Shown: piece after piece, positions 1-8,161 of the stretch | How the letters are laid out: every line of letters starts with the position of its first letter | Position numbering within the stretch: position 1 is the stretch's first letter | Assembly: GCA_944390115.1 (NCBI GenBank) | Contig: CALXOW010000009.1 | Span: 1-64,000 of the forward strand | Length of the DNA: 64,000 nucleotides | Reading direction: 5' to 3' | Source: an uncultured Anaerobiospirillum sp. | Lineage (GTDB): Bacteria > Pseudomonadota > Gammaproteobacteria > Enterobacterales > Succinivibrionaceae | Program-made: the position numbers and the translations under genes | The notes under the pieces: generated by a model | What the model saw: only the letters and a program-made list of their open reading frames with translations | What the model was told of the DNA's origin: nothing | Database searches by the model: none

Positions 1-64
1 AATCTCCTATTGTGATCGAACAGTGATGCTGTTATTATACACCAAATGAAAAAATTTATGTTAA

Positions 65-247
65 CCTGTACTAGTCAATCGCAACTTTCCCATTGCCAAG
101 TGGGAGCAGATTTACCGCGAGATTCAGAGGTACGCGGACGAGGAGGCTGATTGCAAATTCGGTCTCGTCTTTGATGACCAGATGGCCGAAGACCAGATGG
201 TAGTGACGCTGTTCGTGAGTGGTTTGGCTGAGCCGTTACAGGCTTAG
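65..247 (+). pseudogene. 3' remnant of an FtsZ-like gene
   Basis: From about position 74 one frame reads VNRNFPIAKWEQ... and runs to TAG at 245-247. It closely matches the C-terminal domain of the next gene (VNRNFPITNWEQ, then AEDQxxxT before the end), which corresponds to the end of the FtsZ C-terminal domain. An in-frame TAA at 62-64 and the lack of a start codon mean this is only the last 55-60 codons. Positions 1-70 are AT-rich and show no FtsZ similarity, so the homology starts abruptly, as at a recombination or deletion junction. The stop codon overlaps the ribosome-binding site of the next copy. Called a fragment with good confidence; how it was truncated is unknown. Confidence 0.75.
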
Positions 248-260
248 GAGAGGAATGTTT

Positions 261-1457
261 ATGCCCGAGCAATTGGTGATCGACTCAATTATGTTGAAGC
301 CCTTTAGTGAGCTACCGACTGGGACCAAGACTGATACCAGCAAAAAGTGGTATGACTGGGACTGGGAGTCCTCTGATGTGGTTCGTTTCGTGGGGGTAGG
401 GAGTGCTGCCTGTGACATTGTGCGTTACCTGAGCGAACACACGCACCATGTTTTAGTCGATTTCATTGCAGTTGATCAAGATTTGGAAGCCCTCAAACGT
501 TCGGAAGCCATGACCCAAGTGCTGTTAAAAAACGCAGGAAGTGAGCCCACAGTTGCCGCAAATGCTGTAGCGCCCTATGATTTGGATCGCTTATCGGAGT
601 CGGCCGATTTAGATGAAATCAGGCAGCCATTGGCTGGCTCTGATATGGTCTTTGTGCTCGTTGATCTTGGGGAGCGCTCTGCTTTGGGGGTAGCTCTTGA
701 CCTAGCACAGGTCGCGCGAGCTAGCGGTGCTTTGACCATTGGTATTGGGCTGCAACCATTAAGTAGCGAGGGCCAGGATCGTAGCCTGTGTGCTCAATAC
801 GGCCTTACTGAGCTTGAGGCCAAGATGGGTACGCTCTTTGCCCTTGATCCCAATCAGCTCTTGCCACAAACAGGCTGCAACCGGCGTGAGCTTCACGAGG
901 AAGTGAACTCTGTGGTGCTTCACATATTGCTTGGCTTCATTGAGCCCTGCGCAGTGCCTGGATATATTAATTTAGGCTTCTCTGATGTGCTGACCGTTTT
1001 TAAGGGCCGGGGCTTGGCTGCAATAGGCTTTGCTCAAGCCTCAGGCGAAAACTTTGTGGTTGATGCCGTGAAGCAGGCCGTGCATTATCCGCTGCTAGAG
1101 CAGGTGGACCTCAAGAAAGCATCCGGTCTGTTCGTTAACGCCCGCGTTAACCGCAACTTCCCAATTACCAATTGGGAGCAGATTAGCCGCGAGATCCAGG
1201 AATATTTCGACGAAGAGGCCTACTGCAAGTACGGAATCGTTTTTAACGACGAGATTGCAGAAGACCAGATCGCTATTACTATTCTGATCGCCGGTATTTC
1301 CGGGGACGAGGCTCCGAAGAATGAGAACCAAATGGCCGCTGTGCGTTCCAATGCTAGTGGAAGATTCGGCTTGCATAGCAAAACCTCTAGGTGCTCGACC
1401 CTTGGCAAGCCAGCTCAGAGGCTTGAGCCTTTATTCAGCACAAAGGCAAAACGGTAA
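261..1457 (+). CDS. Degenerate FtsZ-like protein, array copy A
   Basis: 398 residues with FtsZ layout end to end. The T1 loop is FVGVGSAACD (about residues 43-52) instead of a glycine run. The T4 signature GGGTGTG is replaced by LGERSALG (about 136-143). The T7 loop is NLGFSD (237-242), keeping N237 and D242 of the NxDxxD motif but with Gly for the first Asp. GTP binding is therefore unlikely, while an FtsZ-like fold and a partly preserved catalytic face are plausible. Start: ATG 261 sits about 10 nt after AGGAG (246-250) and aligns with the start of copy B (LVIDSI against LSIDSI); ATG 255 is possible but close to the Shine-Dalgarno. The last 30 residues lie inside an inverted repeat and are not FtsZ-like. 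Family assignment is firm; function is unknown. Confidence 0.8.
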   Translation: MPEQLVIDSIMLKPFSELPTGTKTDTSKKWYDWDWESSDVVRFVGVGSAACDIVRYLSEHTHHVLVDFIAVDQDLEALKRSEAMTQVLLKNAGSEPTVAANAVAPYDLDRLSESADLDEIRQPLAGSDMVFVLVDLGERSALGVALDLAQVARASGALTIGIGLQPLSSEGQDRSLCAQYGLTELEAKMGTLFALDPNQLLPQTGCNRRELHEEVNSVVLHILLGFIEPCAVPGYINLGFSDVLTVFKGRGLAAIGFAQASGENFVVDAVKQAVHYPLLEQVDLKKASGLFVNARVNRNFPITNWEQISREIQEYFDEEAYCKYGIVFNDEIAEDQIAITILIAGISGDEAPKNENQMAAVRSNASGRFGLHSKTSRCSTLGKPAQRLEPLFSTKAKR

Positions 1458-1497
1458 AGCCTCTGAGTTTTGTCATGCAAGCCGAATCTTCCACTAG
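1354..1497. repeat. Inverted repeat at the end of FtsZ-like copy A
   Basis: Positions 1354-1376 and 1475-1497 are perfect 23-nt reverse complements, followed inwards by about ten more imperfectly paired bases. The left arm encodes the non-FtsZ tail of copy A. The right arm lies in the stranded tail-coding frame downstream. The arrangement looks like an inverted duplication that replaced the original 3' end of copy A. Confidence 0.85.
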
Positions 1498-1579
1498 TAG
1501 CCGTCGCAAGGTGCCACCTCAGGTTAACGATGATTGGGACGATCCTGAGATGTCTCAGATCTTCCGCAAGAAGATCTAA
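1427..1579 (+). pseudogene. Stranded FtsZ-type C-terminal tail
   Basis: After a TGA at 1424-1426, a frame shifted by -1 relative to copy A is open to TAA at 1577-1579. It encodes a Ser/Arg-rich linker and ends DDWDDPEMSQIFRKKI. Acidic residues, a proline, then IFRKK resemble the conserved FtsZ C-terminal peptide (E. coli ends DIPAFLRKQ), which binds FtsA and ZipA. It overlaps the last codons of copy A, so a -1 shift near AAAA at 1448-1451 would fuse it to that protein. No other copy in the array carries such a tail. Identification as an FtsZ tail is inference. Confidence 0.5.
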
Positions 1580-1722
1580 GCTAAGACCCAACCTAATTCC
1601 ATCCAGGGCAAGTCTCAGGCCTGAATCGAGCTTGTGCCGTAAATCAGCAATGGCTGCTCAAGCTCAATCTAATCAATAATCGCTGCGCAGTGGAGCAAGA
1701 TAGGGCTTAAGGGAAGGATGAT

Positions 1723-2808
1723 ATGTACTGTAATTTGTCGATTGATTCAATCTTGCGCAGTCCATCTGCTGCCAATAATCCAGCGTATCAGCCGGATGAT
1801 ACGAGCGAAAACGGGATAAGAGCCTTCCGGCTAGGCATAGTGGGAGTAGGTTACGAGACCTGTGACCTACTGTACTATTTGCGGCAGCACACCTCGTGCG
1901 AAGATTGTGAGTTCCTTGTGATAGACAGGAACAGGGCAGCCTTAGAGCGTTCGGGGGCCGACACGCTAGTGCTGTTGAGTTATGACGGTCATGCCGACAC
2001 TCGAACTCCGCTTGAACACATCGCGGCGCAAGCTGATCGGGAGCAACTGCATGCTATATTGAAGCCTTACGATTTGCTCTTTGTGGTGGCGATCCTGGGG
2101 GGATATACCGCAACGGGCATTGTCACCGATATCGCGCGGGTAGCGCGTGCCACGGACGCTTTGACCATTGGTGTGGTGATCCCACCCTTTAGCTACGAGA
2201 CAATTGACCGAATTAATTGTGCCCAGTACGGCATTGCTGAGCTTGAGGCGAGTTTGGATGCGCTCTTGGTTTGTGATCCCAACAAGTTCTTGCAGCAACC
2301 TGGCTGCAAGCTGTGCGATGCCCGTGCCGCAGTTAACGACGCAGCGCTTCAGGTCGTGGATGGAGTGGTAGAGCCATTTTCCAAGCCTGGATTAATCGGC
2401 TTTGATTTTAGTGATATCGTGTCAGTTTTTAGGAATGCCGGGCGCGTTGCGGTGGGCTTTGCTCAAGCCTCAGGGGCTAACTTCGTTGGCGATGCCTTAG
2501 AGCAAGCCTTGCGTTATCCGCTGCTTGATCAAATTCCACTGAGCAAAGCGCGTAGGATCTTGGTTCATACTCGGGTGAATCGCAACTTCCCCATTACCCA
2601 GTGGGAGCCGCTTAACTGCAAGATGCAGCAGGAAGCTGACGAAGACGCCGACATCAAGTACAGCATGGCCTGGGATGACAATCTTGCTGAAGACCAGATC
2701 GTCGTTACTATTTTCACCACTGATGGCGGCACAGCGCCGCAGGATGAGCAATCCCATAACGGCCGTGCGCGCCAATTTGAGCTGAGCAGCCTTTTCCACA
2801 CGGTGTAG
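1723..2808 (+). CDS. Degenerate FtsZ-like protein, array copy B
   Basis: 361 residues, clearly related to copy A throughout (shared IDSI start, CAQYG, VGFAQASG and VNRNFPI segments). T1 is GIVGVGYETCD (about 38-48). T4 is LGGYTATG (about 125-132), retaining only part of the glycine pattern. T7 is GFDFSD (226-231), so both aspartates of NxDxxD remain and only the Asn is lost. The C-terminal domain ends AEDQIVVTIF followed by a short tail with no FtsA/ZipA-binding peptide. GGAAGG 8 nt upstream supports ATG 1723. Predicted cytoplasmic; probably poor at binding nucleotide but possibly able to contact an FtsZ subunit through the T7 face. That role is inference. Confidence 0.8.
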   Translation: MYCNLSIDSILRSPSAANNPAYQPDDTSENGIRAFRLGIVGVGYETCDLLYYLRQHTSCEDCEFLVIDRNRAALERSGADTLVLLSYDGHADTRTPLEHIAAQADREQLHAILKPYDLLFVVAILGGYTATGIVTDIARVARATDALTIGVVIPPFSYETIDRINCAQYGIAELEASLDALLVCDPNKFLQQPGCKLCDARAAVNDAALQVVDGVVEPFSKPGLIGFDFSDIVSVFRNAGRVAVGFAQASGANFVGDALEQALRYPLLDQIPLSKARRILVHTRVNRNFPITQWEPLNCKMQQEADEDADIKYSMAWDDNLAEDQIVVTIFTTDGGTAPQDEQSHNGRARQFELSSLFHTV

Positions 2809-2914
2809 GCTAAATCTTCGGACCAGCGCTCAAGCTGAGGGCAAAGATAAATGGGGTGAGAGCGCATTGGCCCTAGCACGTTCGTAGATATGGTTAATCC
2901 TTTGAGGGCGTAAC

Positions 2915-2944
2915 TGCGCGGTCTTGGGTTTTTGAAGCTCATTT
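2915..2944 (+). repeat. Duplicated upstream block of copies C and D (first unit)
   Basis: TAACTGCGCGGTCTTGGG followed by TTTTTGA before copy C matches CAACTGCACGGTCTTAGG followed by CTTTTGA at about 3955-3979 before copy D. In the second instance the block also encodes the C-terminus of copy C. It marks the junction of the tandem duplication that created C and D. Confidence 0.75.
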
Positions 2945-2965
2945 GACGAGTCATAGGGAGTGGCG

Positions 2966-3979
2966 ATGGACGTAGATCAGGCTGATGGCGACGGAGCGGG
3001 CGCTCCGGTGATCAAAGTGATTGGCGTGGGCGGCGGCGGGACTAGGATCGTGCAATTTATGAGGGAGCACGGTTTGACTGGCGTCCAGTTGGTGGTGGTT
3101 GACACCAATGCACGCGACCTTGAGCGTGCTACGGTTCCTGAAAAGGTGCAAATTGGAGCTAAGACTACCGGTGGTATGGGGACTTTCTTTAGCCACGAAA
3201 AGGGGCTGAAGGCGGTTGAGGAGAGCCGAACACAGCTTAAGTACATCGTATCTGGTGCCGATTTAGTGATCGTGGTCGCTGGTATGGGCGGAGGCACCAG
3301 CAGTGGAGCAAGTCTGGCAATAGCTCAAATCGCCCACGAATTAGGCATTGCGACAGTAGCTTTAGTGACGCTGCCTTTTGCCTTTGAGGGCAAGAAGCAT
3401 GCGCTGGTGGCGCAGTGGTTTCTGTGTGAACTAGCACCTCATGTCGACGCTCTAATTGCCTATGATAATAACGCTTGTTTGTCGCCTCGTTATGGCTCTA
3501 TCTCAATTAACAAAGCCTTTGAGCAGGTCAACGCGCGCTTGTTCCATACCATGCAGGGCATTATCGCCTCTTGGCAACAACATGCTTTTTCGTTTGAGCG
3601 ACAGCTCGCGCTGGTGACGCGGGGCGGAAAGGTATTGGTGAGCTGGGGCCAAGCTCAGGGCGAAAATGCTGTGGCTGACGCAGTGGCGCAAGCGCTCAAC
3701 TCGCCTTGGCGTGCGGCTTTAGGTGGCTCGCGTGATACTCGCCTGCAAGCGTATGCGTTGTTTGAGCACACTATCGAGGACCAAGCTGAGTTAGCTCTTC
3801 CTGAAATTCACAAATTCATTGGTCCAGACACCAATTGCCTGTGTAGTTGCAGCTGTTGTGACTCCCGATTTTTAGCACAAGGATGCGCGCTCCTCGCCTT
3901 GTTTGTGCAAATCGAGAGCTTTGAGACAACGCAAAAAAGTTCGAGAACAGGTCGCAACTGCACGGTCTTAGGCTTTTGA
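2966..3979 (+). CDS. FtsZ-like protein with GTP loops but no T7 motif, copy C
   Basis: 337 residues. The N-terminal GTPase half is well preserved: APVIKVIGVGGGGT (T1, about 13-26), GGGTSSGA (T4, 108-115) and LPFAFEGKKH (about 136-145, FtsZ-like). The T7 region (about 206-220) reads FSFERQLAL and has no NxDxxD. The C-terminal domain is shortened and Cys-rich (CLCSCSCC), and the last residues are encoded by sequence that is also repeated upstream of this gene. Start ATG 2966, five nt after GGGAG, aligns with the copy D start; an in-frame GTG at 2960 overlaps the Shine-Dalgarno. Likely binds GTP but should not complete a hydrolysing interface (inference). Confidence 0.8.
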   Translation: MDVDQADGDGAGAPVIKVIGVGGGGTRIVQFMREHGLTGVQLVVVDTNARDLERATVPEKVQIGAKTTGGMGTFFSHEKGLKAVEESRTQLKYIVSGADLVIVVAGMGGGTSSGASLAIAQIAHELGIATVALVTLPFAFEGKKHALVAQWFLCELAPHVDALIAYDNNACLSPRYGSISINKAFEQVNARLFHTMQGIIASWQQHAFSFERQLALVTRGGKVLVSWGQAQGENAVADAVAQALNSPWRAALGGSRDTRLQAYALFEHTIEDQAELALPEIHKFIGPDTNCLCSCSCCDSRFLAQGCALLALFVQIESFETTQKSSRTGRNCTVLGF

Positions 3980-4008
3980 GCCCCACTGAACCAACATAAG
4001 GAGTTTCT

Positions 4009-5049
4009 ATGACTGATGCTAAGGCTGATAGAGACGGGGCGGGCGCTCCGGTGATTAAAGTGATTGGCGTGGGCGGCGGCGGCAGTAATGCCGTGCAGCA
4101 CATGATCAACCAAGGCTTAGGTGGCGCTCAGTTCTGTGTGGTTAACACCGACCGACAAGCGCTTGCGCGCTCGACAGCTCCGGTTAAGATTGAAATTGGG
4201 TTGGATTGCTGCGGTGGTTTAGGCGCAGGCTGTGATTTCGCGCGTGGCCGCAAGGCGGCTGAAGAAAGCTACGCTGAGCTCAAGCAAGAGTTGGCGGGCG
4301 CTGACTTAGTGATCTTGGTTGCATGCTTAGGTGGTGGTACCGGTGGTGGAGCAAGTCCGGTCATTGCTCAAATCGCGCGTGAATTGGGCATTGTGACGGT
4401 TGCTCTTATGACTCTTCCTTTTGCCTTTGAGGGCAAGAAGCATCGGCTCTACGCCGAGGTTGACTTTGATTTGCTGTGCGCGCAGGTGGATGCCCTCGTC
4501 ATGGTCGACAACAATGATTGCTTGAGCCTCTTGGAAGGGGAAAATGTCTCAATTGTGAATGCCTTCAACTTGGTCAATGAGCTCTGGAGCCGTGCTGTGC
4601 GTTTCGCAATTAACTCTTGGAGTGCGAAGCATAAGACTTATTTCTCCTCAGCACAAGCGATTGAGGCGATAGGTTGTCGCTTCCAAGTCTTGCTCAGTTG
4701 CGTCCGCACTCAGGGCGAACAGGCAGTGGCAGAGGCAGTGGCGCAAGTGGTACACGCGCCATGGCGCGAGGTGTTGTCTAGGGTACCCCAGAGCAGCTTG
4801 CATCTTTATTCGCTTTGTGAGTACAGCGTCAAGGCGCAAGATAAGCTCATTGAGGGCGCGATGAGAAAGGCGCTCGGTCCAGATACGGAATGCCAGTTTC
4901 ACGGAGCTTTTGTCAGCTCTGAGCTCCTAAAGCAAGGTCAAGTGCAATTGACGCTGCTTGTCCAATTGGGCGCTATGGAGCAGGCCAAGGAAGCTCTGAA
5001 GGAAATGATTCAAGCTGGGCCGCACTTTATTGCGGGGAAGCGTAGCTGA
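4009..5049 (+). CDS. FtsZ-like protein with GTP loops but no T7 motif, copy D
   Basis: 346 residues and the best-preserved nucleotide site of the array: GVGGGGSNAV (T1, 20-29), VVNTD (44-48), GGLGAG (69-74), GGGTGGGAS (T4, 108-116) and FAFEGKKH (138-145). The T7 segment (about 208-222) is FSSAQAIEAIG, without any NxDxxD. The C-terminus ends in a basic stretch rather than an FtsZ tail peptide. Copies C and D share the segment from DGAGAPVIKVIG onward and a matching block before their starts, so they arose by tandem duplication. AAGGAG upstream supports ATG 4009. Possible GTP-binding, non-hydrolysing partner of an FtsZ outside the window. Confidence 0.82.
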   Translation: MTDAKADRDGAGAPVIKVIGVGGGGSNAVQHMINQGLGGAQFCVVNTDRQALARSTAPVKIEIGLDCCGGLGAGCDFARGRKAAEESYAELKQELAGADLVILVACLGGGTGGGASPVIAQIARELGIVTVALMTLPFAFEGKKHRLYAEVDFDLLCAQVDALVMVDNNDCLSLLEGENVSIVNAFNLVNELWSRAVRFAINSWSAKHKTYFSSAQAIEAIGCRFQVLLSCVRTQGEQAVAEAVAQVVHAPWREVLSRVPQSSLHLYSLCEYSVKAQDKLIEGAMRKALGPDTECQFHGAFVSSELLKQGQVQLTLLVQLGAMEQAKEALKEMIQAGPHFIAGKRS

Positions 5050-5388: not shown

Positions 5389-6336
5389 ATGATCTTCCAG
5401 CGAACCATTAAAGAAGCGGTTTCTGCTACAGGAATTGGCCTGCATTCAGGCTCCAAGGTTGAAGTCACCTTCCGCCCTGCTCCAGCCAATACCGGTATCA
5501 TCTATACCCGCACGGATCTCTCACCTAAAGTTTCGATCGAGTGCACCCCTGAGGCTGTGCGCGATACGCAGCTGTGCACCGCTTTGGTCAACCTCGAGGG
5601 CGTCCGCATCTCGACTGTCGAGCACTTAACTGCGGCTTTGAGCGCCATGGGTATTGATAACTTGTTCGTTGACGTCAACGCTCCCGAGTTACCAGTGATG
5701 GATGGCTCAGCCCAGCCTTTCATTTACCTCTTAGAGTCGGTCGGCGTCGAAGAGTTACCTGCGCTCAAGCAGTTCATCCACTTAAAGCGTCCAGTGCGCG
5801 TCGAAGACGGCGATAAGTGGGCTGAGATCCTCCCAGGTGATGGTTTTAGCCTTGATTTGACTATCGACTTTAACCACCCGGCGATGGAGCGTGAGCTGCA
5901 ACACTTCCATTTAGAGTTCTCGGGTCAGTCCTTTGTGCGCGAGCTGGCACGTGCCCGTACCTTCTGCTTTATGCGTGATGTCGAGTACATGCACAGCCAC
6001 AATCTGGCCTTAGGCGGCTCGCTTGAGAACGCCGTAGTCTTGGACGATTATCGCGTGATTAATCCAGAGGGCCTGCGTTACCCGAACGAGTTCGTTAAGC
6101 ACAAGATGTTAGATGCTATCGGTGACCTCTACATGAGCGGTCACAGCATCTTAGGTCAATTCCGTGCTTACAAGACCGGCCATAAGCTCAACAATATGCT
6201 GCTGCGTGCCGTGCTCGCTCAGCAAGAAAATTACGAGCTGGTCACGATCGGCGCTCCTCAGAACAACGAGTCGATCGATTTCCTGGGGCAAGACGTTACC
6301 CCAGCCCTGGGTGGCCACCAGCTGGTAGTTAGCTAA
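5389..6336 (+). CDS. lpxC: UDP-3-O-acyl-N-acetylglucosamine deacetylase
   Basis: LpxC catalyses the committed, zinc-dependent step of lipid A synthesis in the cytoplasm. The 315-residue product has the family start [21 protein letters not shown] and the zinc ligands H79 ([10 protein letters not shown]), H238 and D242 ([10 protein letters not shown]), matching E. coli numbering. E78 and H265 complete the active site. Start ATG 5389 follows GAGGGA at 5375-5380; in-frame codons further upstream lack family similarity. Its place after FtsZ-type genes matches the usual ftsZ-lpxC order. Length is normal (305 in E. coli). Confidence 0.97.
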
Positions 6337-6568: not shown

Positions 6569-8161
6569 ATGGGAAGAAAAAGAAAGGACTCGAGCAGAAC
6601 GGTCATTGACCCTAAGTTATTGCCGACCAACATCACCCCACCGCCGCCCCCCGATCTCAAACTGCAAGTGCGTGGTAATCCCACCAGCGGTTATCGCGTG
6701 TGTACCTACTTTGCCCGGTGGCGCCCGGTGGTCAAGGAGACTGACTCCACCCCTCGTAAAGAAGGCTCGTGCGTGGCTACCCACGTCAAGACCGTGGGCT
6801 ATATCGAAAAGCACAAGCGCTCGGGCAAGATTATCTTTGTGCCGGACTTCTACTTAGAGGTTCCGACCTTGCGCTATTACGACGTGTACCGCGACTACGA
6901 TCACTGCACCTATCAGCTGCGCCCTGATTGGCGCGAAACCTGGTATCTCACGGAGCGCTCTCTCTACCAGCCCCCTGAGGAAAGCCTCAATCTCAAACAA
7001 GAACTGTCGCGGCTGCGCAAACTGGTATCAGCGCAAAAGCGCGCGGCCGCTCAAGGCATTGCATTAGAGCTTGACCTTGAGACCCCAAATGACGCTCCAG
7101 AGATGGGGCCGCAAAAGGAAGCGGTACGCGGCTCATATAATCAATACATGATGGGCTCCATTCCTACCACCGATGCGCTGCAAGAGGGAGTCTACCGGGC
7201 CGGTGACAAGGAGCGCACTGAGCCATCGTGGGCGGCACAATATGCCTTAACTATGGGCGAGCCCTCAGTTGCGCCCAATATCGTGCCTGCCATTGCCAAG
7301 GCGGGCAAGCGTGCGCCAGTGCGCGCCGAGCCTCCTGGGCCTGATGCCTATTTGTCTCTAACCGATGACCCTAATTCGGAGTGGCATGTTAAGCCGCAGC
7401 ATGATGTGCTGCCGCCATCGCAGCCGCAAGAGCGCCTCCAGCGCCAGGCTGAGCTCGATAAGATCTTAGATCCACGTCAAGGCAAGGCCCCAGCGCGTAA
7501 GACGGGCACTAAATATCGCCCTCAGGCGCTAAAAGTAGAGTCATTGCCCGCTGGCGCGCCGCACAGTATGGTACAGCCGCGCCCCGCCGTGCCTGAAGCG
7601 GCGGGAGCGGCCCAACCGTCACACACCGCACAGCCTGTCGAGAACCAGGACAACGAGTTACTGCGGGGGGTAACTGAGCTCGGTACGGCTAATGGGCTCA
7701 AGGTCGGTAAGGCGCATGATGGAACCGGGATCGCTGCTGCGCTGTCCGATGGGCTCAAGGTTGATGCGCTTGATGGAGCGGGGCTCAGTGCGCGCAAGAG
7801 CGAGCAGGCGCAGCATGGTGAACCCCTGCCTGGTGCCAAGTTGCATCGTGAAACTGGGCTCGACGCGACTCAATCTGCTGGGGTGCCGTTATCTGAATCT
7901 GCTGGGGTGCCACTATCTGAGTTGTTGGTGCCTGATAAGGTGCAGCGCCGGGGCGAAGATGCTGGGGAGTCGTTGCGCCTGTCGGGCGCAGTGCGCCTGA
8001 GTGCCGCACCGTCTCAGTCCAAGGCTAAGGGCACGCTTGCTAAGTCCACGACTAAGTATCGTCCTAAGTCGTCCTTGCAGGGGGCTACCGTGGTGAATGT
8101 GGGAACTTTGCGCTTGCAGGGAACGCGCAAGCTTCAGCCTGATGATGAGGAGCAGTCATGA
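6569..8161 (+). CDS. Unrecognised protein with transposase-type N-terminal domain and low-complexity tail
   Basis: 530 residues, no signal peptide or membrane segment. The basic start (MGRKRKDSSR) and a proline run lead into an ordered domain (about 40-130) rich in aromatic and beta-type residues. Residues 75-108 (KTVGYI, SGKIIF, DVYR) match residues 58-94 of the 914-residue protein at 56589-59333 and resemble the N-terminal domain of IS1634/IS4-type transposases, but no DDE catalytic part follows. Residues 136-160 may be helical; the rest is Ala/Pro/Gly/Gln-rich with degenerate repeats (SAGVPLSE twice, variants of DGLKV). The stop overlaps the ampD start by 4 nt (ATGA), so the two are translationally coupled. 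Function unknown; the domain match is by eye. Confidence 0.75.
   Translation: MGRKRKDSSRTVIDPKLLPTNITPPPPPDLKLQVRGNPTSGYRVCTYFARWRPVVKETDSTPRKEGSCVATHVKTVGYIEKHKRSGKIIFVPDFYLEVPTLRYYDVYRDYDHCTYQLRPDWRETWYLTERSLYQPPEESLNLKQELSRLRKLVSAQKRAAAQGIALELDLETPNDAPEMGPQKEAVRGSYNQYMMGSIPTTDALQEGVYRAGDKERTEPSWAAQYALTMGEPSVAPNIVPAIAKAGKRAPVRAEPPGPDAYLSLTDDPNSEWHVKPQHDVLPPSQPQERLQRQAELDKILDPRQGKAPARKTGTKYRPQALKVESLPAGAPHSMVQPRPAVPEAAGAAQPSHTAQPVENQDNELLRGVTELGTANGLKVGKAHDGTGIAAALSDGLKVDALDGAGLSARKSEQAQHGEPLPGAKLHRETGLDATQSAGVPLSESAGVPLSELLVPDKVQRRGEDAGESLRLSGAVRLSAAPSQSKAKGTLAKSTTKYRPKSSLQGATVVNVGTLRLQGTRKLQPDDEEQS

Follow-up and report, generated by a model that had tools for sequence, protein, structure and literature searches.

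FtsZ paralogues in described systems and the array upstream of lpxC

In chloroplasts, the FtsZ-derived protein ARC3 binds FtsZ and inhibits its assembly (PMC5855766, PMC4593956). Among bacteria, Agrobacterium tumefaciens carries three FtsZ homologues, only one of them with a linker and a C-terminal peptide (PMC13170164). Few bacteria have a second ftsZ gene, and in these it is located outside the division and cell wall (dcw) cluster (PMC9871819). More than one FtsZ/tubulin paralogue per genome is also found in archaea, with FtsZ1/FtsZ2 and with Halo.Tub, the latter quasi-tandem (PMC9871819, PMC12583498). Here, we describe an array of FtsZ paralogues at the start of contig C9 in the draft genome of an uncultured Anaerobiospirillum sp. 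(G000; 3.64 Mb, 92.9% complete, 123 contigs). In the window, which is the first 64 kb of this contig, lpxC is preceded by four open FtsZ-family genes, copies A, B, C and D, arranged head to tail and all on the plus strand. They fall into two classes that appear to have lost opposite halves of FtsZ.

By analogy, ARC3 is the best functional precedent for the array and the Agrobacterium homologues the nearest bacterial one. Compared by description, ARC3 has a MORN domain, whereas no MORN domain was found among the Pfam matches at E ≤ 1 for the four copies (the HMMER filters drop most weak matches). Furthermore, ARC3 stands in for MinC, whereas the array genome has MinC, and the array consists of several copies of two kinds at one locus. 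A. tumefaciens has three homologues compared with five to nine here, and the excerpt of PMC13170164 mentions neither an array nor complementary halves for them. The two Odinarchaeal FtsZs differ in keeping the motifs for GTP binding and hydrolysis (PMC12583498). At eight loci in other genera of the family (L141, L142, L144 and L150 to L154), a second ftsZ occupies the same site as the array, between ftsZ and lpxC, but it keeps the pocket, T7 and C-domain signatures. MciZ, MinC and SulA inhibit FtsZ as separate proteins, not as copies of it, and are not known to be homologous to FtsZ. They resemble the array, as we interpret it below, in acting on one FtsZ polymerisation face (PMC11938149). Among the matches listed from open-licence literature (titles and abstract starts), there was no description of extra FtsZs in Succinivibrionaceae or Anaerobiospirillum, and the layout and loss pattern of the array were not found described in the literature searched.

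Two classes of copies with opposite losses

All four copies exceeded the PF00091 (Tubulin/FtsZ) cut-off of 33 bits (A, 37.3; B, 42.9; C, 112; D, 121.6) and matched TIGR00065 with E values of 5e-42 to 2e-59. Profiles and frames thus bear out the original prediction, made from the sequence alone, of four open FtsZ-like genes head to tail upstream of lpxC; A and B, for which it had named the lack of a family match as a refutation, are both over the family cut-off. Conversely, none of the four reached the TIGR00065 equivalog cut-off of 295.2 bits (144 to 202 bits), compared to 383 bits for the canonical FtsZ of the same genome. In PF12327 (FtsZ_C), A and B were over the cut-off, and C and D were not among the matches. 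PF13809 (Tubulin_2) stayed below its 27-bit cut-off for C (16.1 bits) and D (12.3 bits), with A and B not among the matches. The GTP-binding motif, stated as GGGTG[T/S]G in PMC12583498, was exact in none of the copies: C has GGGTSSG, D has GGGTGGG, and A and B are far off. Likewise, none has an exact T7 hydrolysis motif, NxDxx[D/E], which reads NLGFSD in A and GFDFSD in B and is unrecognisable in C and D. By pattern, an in-frame C-terminal tether-binding peptide was absent from all four window copies and present in canonical FtsZ and in copies A and E of the sister genome G003, probably also Anaerobiospirillum. By profile and motif, the array copies are clearly FtsZ family members and not competent FtsZs.

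We counted erosion over those alignment columns that 35 canonical FtsZs share at a level of 94% or more, and combined the count with a motif alignment. Class II comprises A and B, copies G and E of G003, and the copies of a further genome of the genus, G009. Here the T1 to T5 nucleotide motifs are largely lost, and most of the T7 and C-domain signature is kept (A, 10/38 pocket and 28/38 T7 plus C-domain columns; B, 14/38 and 24/38). Class I comprises C, D, copies D1 and D2 of G003, and two of the four domains of G004, another species of the genus. In this class, the pocket is mostly kept and the T7 and C-domain signature is lost (C, 25/38 and 8/38; D, 34/38 and 3/38, the last figure being in part a limit of the alignment). 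Asymmetric loss was found in 15 of 18 array domains at p<0.05, uncorrected, in a count that takes orthologous copies from both genomes, so that the domains are non-independent. Twenty further extra FtsZs from the family, including two from the genus Anaerobiospirillum and several that are near-identical, contained a single asymmetric one (L143, with its N-terminal part unaligned). Since the FtsZ active site is made of the pocket of one subunit and the T7 loop of its neighbour, the sequences indicate that each class retains one filament face, with opposite halves lost.

The exception, L143 (G074:C26, 1616-2497), is a lone and very divergent FtsZ-like gene of 293 amino acids (aa) from another genus, in which only the T7/C-domain half is recognisable.

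Selective constraint and descent of the copies

To measure constraint, we compared the window genome with G003 by the ratio of nonsynonymous to synonymous substitution (dN/dS), using the Nei-Gojobori method with a bootstrap interval and, in addition, a maximum-likelihood (ML) fit of a codon model that estimates omega. The dN/dS was 0.32 (0.24-0.42) for A, 0.57 (0.42-0.79) for B, 0.25 (0.16-0.40) for C, 0.51 (0.33-0.72) for D against D2, and 0.17 (0.04-0.39) for the stranded tail copy at the left edge of the window. In comparison, canonical ftsZ gave 0.07, ftsA 0.02 and lpxC 0.05. The ML omegas were 0.37, 0.63, 0.32 and 0.63 for A to D, and omega=1 was rejected for each (A, p=4e-9; B, p=0.011; C, p=4e-6; D, p=0.049). 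The copies are therefore constrained, under relaxed selection but not dead. Recent decay, which the original prediction had named as its possible undoing, would have shown as an array absent from relatives and a dN/dS near 1; instead, G003 has the array, and dN/dS is below 1 for A to D, marginally so for D.

In a 40-row tree, C, D and the G004 copies formed one clade (support 99/95, or 98/98 with the second FtsZ of genome G001 included), and A, B, E, G and a G009 copy formed another (91/82, or 93/89 with copy F of G003). A 71-row tree gave the class I clade a support of 100. A single clade for both classes was rejected by the approximately unbiased (AU) test (p-AU 0.029), a result weakened by groups that were named after seeing the tree and by the presence of long branches. 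Together, these trees assign the two classes to distinct clades, of which that of class II is moderately supported. They agree with the two subfamilies, A/B and C/D, that had been proposed from the bases, and the profile matches and trees support more than one round of duplication, where at least two had been suggested.

Gene conversion alone was rejected, for most segments, as the source of the C-domain similarity of class II. Between the copies and canonical ftsZ, the proportion of synonymous differences (pS) was high in most segments (0.57-0.90 at canonical positions 240-290), and the kept half is therefore not simply a fresh copy of canonical ftsZ. pS was lower in a C-domain patch at canonical positions 290-340 (A, 0.54; B, 0.41), a point against the role proposed below, and it was 0.20 between E and G at residues 20-80. 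Patchy gene conversion is likely in these two stretches.

Arrays in related genomes

A match over the FtsZ equivalog cut-off was present in all 11 genomes of the genus. The number of FtsZ-family matches was five in G000, nine in G003, five in G004, three in G009, two each in G001 and G006, and one in the other five. G003 has counterparts of all five window copies. One of its contigs carries, in order, ftsA, ftsZ, an 834-aa double gene (E and F), G (322 aa), A, B, C and a transposase gene, and another carries D1, D2 and lpxC. The ftsA and ftsZ genes that the original prediction had proposed to look for upstream share, in G003, one contig with the copies up to C. It had also placed the canonical ftsZ, if present, outside the window, and in G000 this gene (462 aa, TIGR00065) indeed lies with ftsA (TIGR01174) on contig C105, unbridged in the assembly to the array on C9. 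In G004, a single contig holds ftsZ, a 326-aa copy, a 731-aa double copy, a 369-aa copy and lpxC. Arrays thus occur in two further genomes of the genus, and in G004 one contig spans ftsZ, array and lpxC; for these reasons we rejected an assembly artefact as the main explanation.

Both classes occur in G000 and G003, only class I in G004, and only class II in G009. A census of 57 genomes of the family found at least three FtsZ matches in five genomes, two in 18, one in 32 and none in two; a second ftsZ is therefore common across the wider family. In a census of the bacterial class (184 genomes at least 90% complete, the window's own included), the window's genome alone had more than two matches; one genome had two, 173 had one and nine had none.

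Several observations accompany these loci. The double-FtsZ proteins are encoded at L037, 7207-9711 (834 aa), and L039, 6762-8957 (731 aa); between its two domains, the larger carries a tether-peptide-like stretch and also, as judged by eye, a short helix-turn-helix-like one. At L140 (G009:C27, 241-7685), class II FtsZ-like genes, all very divergent and one split into two frames, come directly after three tandem AAA_5 genes. The AAA_5 genes match restriction-enzyme models in part (E values as low as 7e-18); we take them to be McrB-like, and a defence link of this neighbourhood is possible. In the class census, one ftsZ (G114:C31:80032-80505) is assigned to an open frame 24,386 aa long, which a masked stretch or an assembly error might explain.

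Proposed role and alternative explanations

Within an FtsZ filament, the T7 loop of each subunit takes part in hydrolysing the GTP held by its neighbour. Incoming subunits are believed to join by their GTP-bound top face to the end at which T7 is exposed, a polarity given as tentative (PMC8936486). We tentatively propose, at a probability of roughly 0.4, that the products of the array are half-site FtsZ paralogues, able to enter filaments of canonical FtsZ by a single face only, and that they block filament ends in two ways. Once charged with GTP, a class I subunit would join a canonical filament at its growing end, where T7 is exposed, and then present no bottom face, so that the chain would end. 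A class II subunit would place its bottom face against the top face of an FtsZ subunit with bound GTP and either cap the other end or sequester subunits. Because the window copies have no in-frame tether-binding peptide, FtsZ would be their sole route to the Z ring. The ratio of copies to FtsZ could then tune filament length, turnover or ring timing. With class I alone in G004 and class II alone in G009, canonical FtsZ is the likelier partner, as far as draft genomes can tell. As blocking by class I would predict, the pocket-bearing first half is the more conserved in C (dN/dS 0.20 versus 0.33) and D (0.39 versus 0.59).

It is more doubtful that the two sets, independently derived and each with one face, form a dedicated kit for control of FtsZ filaments in the division cluster, made of GTP-charged terminators and nucleotide-free caps. 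In a bolder form, the copies would also pair with each other, with GTP binding and hydrolysis split between subunits as in alpha/beta tubulin. A genus in which one genome can hold as many as eight FtsZ domains beyond the canonical one, near ftsZ and lpxC and in two clades with opposite losses, is in effect a mutational dissection of the filament interface carried out by nature. If capping is true, the copies would make it possible to test the polarity, treadmilling and end capping of FtsZ directly. To our knowledge, from a search that was not exhaustive, no regulator of this type derived from the FtsZ of the bacterium itself would have preceded them.

A number of results weigh against end blocking. 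Three of the 18 array domains showed no asymmetry (F of G003 and two of G004), and one asymmetric G009 entry is the C-terminal piece of the split gene, which by its nature cannot score any pocket columns; leaving this entry out gives 14 of 17. The C-domain score of D rises to 8/38 in its orthologue D2, which could be aligned further. The predicted model of D has an FtsZ-like fold with a C-terminal domain of at least seven elements after the T7 region, but the AF2 alignments held canonical FtsZ rows, which favours that fold, and full-length D fits known FtsZ poorly, with a root-mean-square deviation of 15-18 Å in nearly all Foldseek rows. The T7 loop of A lacks one catalytic Asp and that of B lacks the Asn. 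B and D are weakly constrained by the ML fit given above. The halves of A are equal in dN/dS (0.316 for the first, 0.314 for the second), and those of B run opposite to the prediction (0.482 and 0.686). The class II clade has a support of 95 with F and only 52 without F in the 71-row tree, and its bootstrap in the 40-row tree is unsettled. Finally, G004 and G009 are drafts (90% and 95% complete), and a class missing there may therefore be unassembled.

Instead of blocking filament ends, the copies could be slowly decaying tandem duplicates from unequal recombination, drifting under weak leftover constraint and with no dedicated function. Omega values about 3.5 to 8 times that of canonical ftsZ fit this account, as do the repeat at the tail copy, the insertion that severs the tail of A, the transposase gene beside copy C of G003, the range of 1 to 9 FtsZ matches within the genus and the split G009 copy. 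We nevertheless consider it unlikely: the frames are open and in order in two genomes despite a synonymous distance (dS) of 0.16-0.44, omega is below 1 in all four copies, and in 15 of 18 domains the loss is concentrated in one protein half, which decay spread evenly over the protein does not predict. The faster change of the copies relative to canonical ftsZ and their variable number would also suit decoys or sensors for phage proteins or toxins that attack FtsZ, diversifying in an arms race. Phage T7 Gp0.4 sequesters FtsZ in a complex that is sensed by a defence protein (PMC13423816), CbtA of E. coli targets FtsZ (PMC5624674), and the FtsZ-like genes of G009 come after the AAA_5 trio described above, with its partial similarity to restriction-enzyme models. 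This explanation is quite unlikely, however, with gene-wide omega not above 1, no PADLOC match at E ≤ 0.001 for the three proteins scanned (A, D and one G009 FtsZ-like protein), and an array that adjoins ftsZ or lpxC in G000, G003 and G004, where defence neighbours were not searched systematically.

The complementary losses, the presence of both classes in G000 and G003 and the two T7 aspartates retained in B raise the idea of a separate heteropolymer, in which class I and class II pair, the T7 loop of class II acts on the GTP of class I, and a second, alpha/beta-tubulin-like filament forms beside the Z ring. We find this improbable, and the last choice among those considered, because neither class seems to need the other in the draft genomes of G004 and G009 and because the residues missing from the T7 loops of A and B tell against it as well. 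Replacement of missing regulators was rejected, since MinC_C, ZipA_C and ZapA, the three searched, match in all 11 genomes. As for a phage origin, one viral-contig scan, made with copy A only, found no relative, and we rejected this origin within that scope.

Features of the window and neighbouring genes

The coordinates of the array and its surroundings are collected in Table 1.

Table 1. Array copies and adjoining features, in positions of the window
Feature	Position	Strand	Remarks
Edge repeat	1..73		mobile-element-like repeat end at contig edge, not FtsZ; recurs on other contigs
3' end of fifth FtsZ-like gene	74..247	+	counterpart of 322-aa copy G of G003; remainder missing
Copy A, class II FtsZ-like	255..1457 (start 255 or 261)	+	pocket eroded, C-terminal domain kept
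144-bp insertion	1354..1497		31-nt inverted (palindromic) ends, 94%
Severed C-terminal peptide region of copy A	1498..1579	+	out of A's frame
Copy B, class II FtsZ-like	1723..2808	+	pocket eroded, C-terminal domain kept, without C-terminal peptide
Copy C, class I FtsZ-like	2966..3979 (or GTG 2960)	+	pocket mostly kept; T7 loop and C-domain signature lost
Copy D, class I FtsZ-like	4009..5049	+	pocket kept; T7 loop and C-domain signature lost
lpxC	5389..6336	+	TIGR00325 414 bits (cut-off 187); position in relatives

At the left edge, bases 1-74 are a repeat, and 65-77 of these bases recur at 100% identity within the first 142 bases of six other contigs (C34, C88, C87, C28, C4 and C36). Further sites lie at C90:6377-6450 (100%) and C115:4377-4450 (88%). 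With this recurrence, the left edge of the window is probably a repeat-caused contig break within a mobile element. The FtsZ sequence of the tail copy begins where the repeat stops, at 74 and not at 65 as first read. Its 57 codons have 89.5% protein identity to copy G of G003, and bases 74-260 match the 3' end of the gene for that copy (L037) at 91% DNA identity; its PF12327 match (E=0.0013) is under the cut-off.

The 144-bp insertion is single-copy in the assembled genome and absent from copy A of the sister. It splits the frame of A from its own C-terminal peptide, and the final residues of that frame are translated insertion sequence. Downstream of it, bases 1499-1594 have 86% DNA identity to the tail of A in G003 and bases 1509-1590 have 88% to the tail of canonical ftsZ. 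Accordingly, the stranded tail read in the original prediction stands as a fifth copy, whereas the separate 3' fragment is the severed peptide of A itself.

A Shine-Dalgarno-like purine run precedes each of the four starts, by eye. Promoter-like sites (5 versus a mean of 4.8) and terminator-like sites (12 versus 7.9, standard deviation 2.8) were near chance. No general tendency to tandem arrays was seen, as the only other paralogous pair among the 48 non-overlapping open reading frames of the window is non-adjacent. In relatives, lpxC comes after ftsZ or after the array. Between the sister genomes, lpxC (5389-6336 versus L038, 2505-3452) has a dS of 0.05, compared to 0.16-0.44 for the other genes compared, perhaps reflecting either local exchange or strong codon constraint. 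It is followed by a gene for a 530-aa protein (6569-8161) without an NCBIfam match, which evolves at about the rate of copy A (omega 0.32); ampD and acnB lie downstream.

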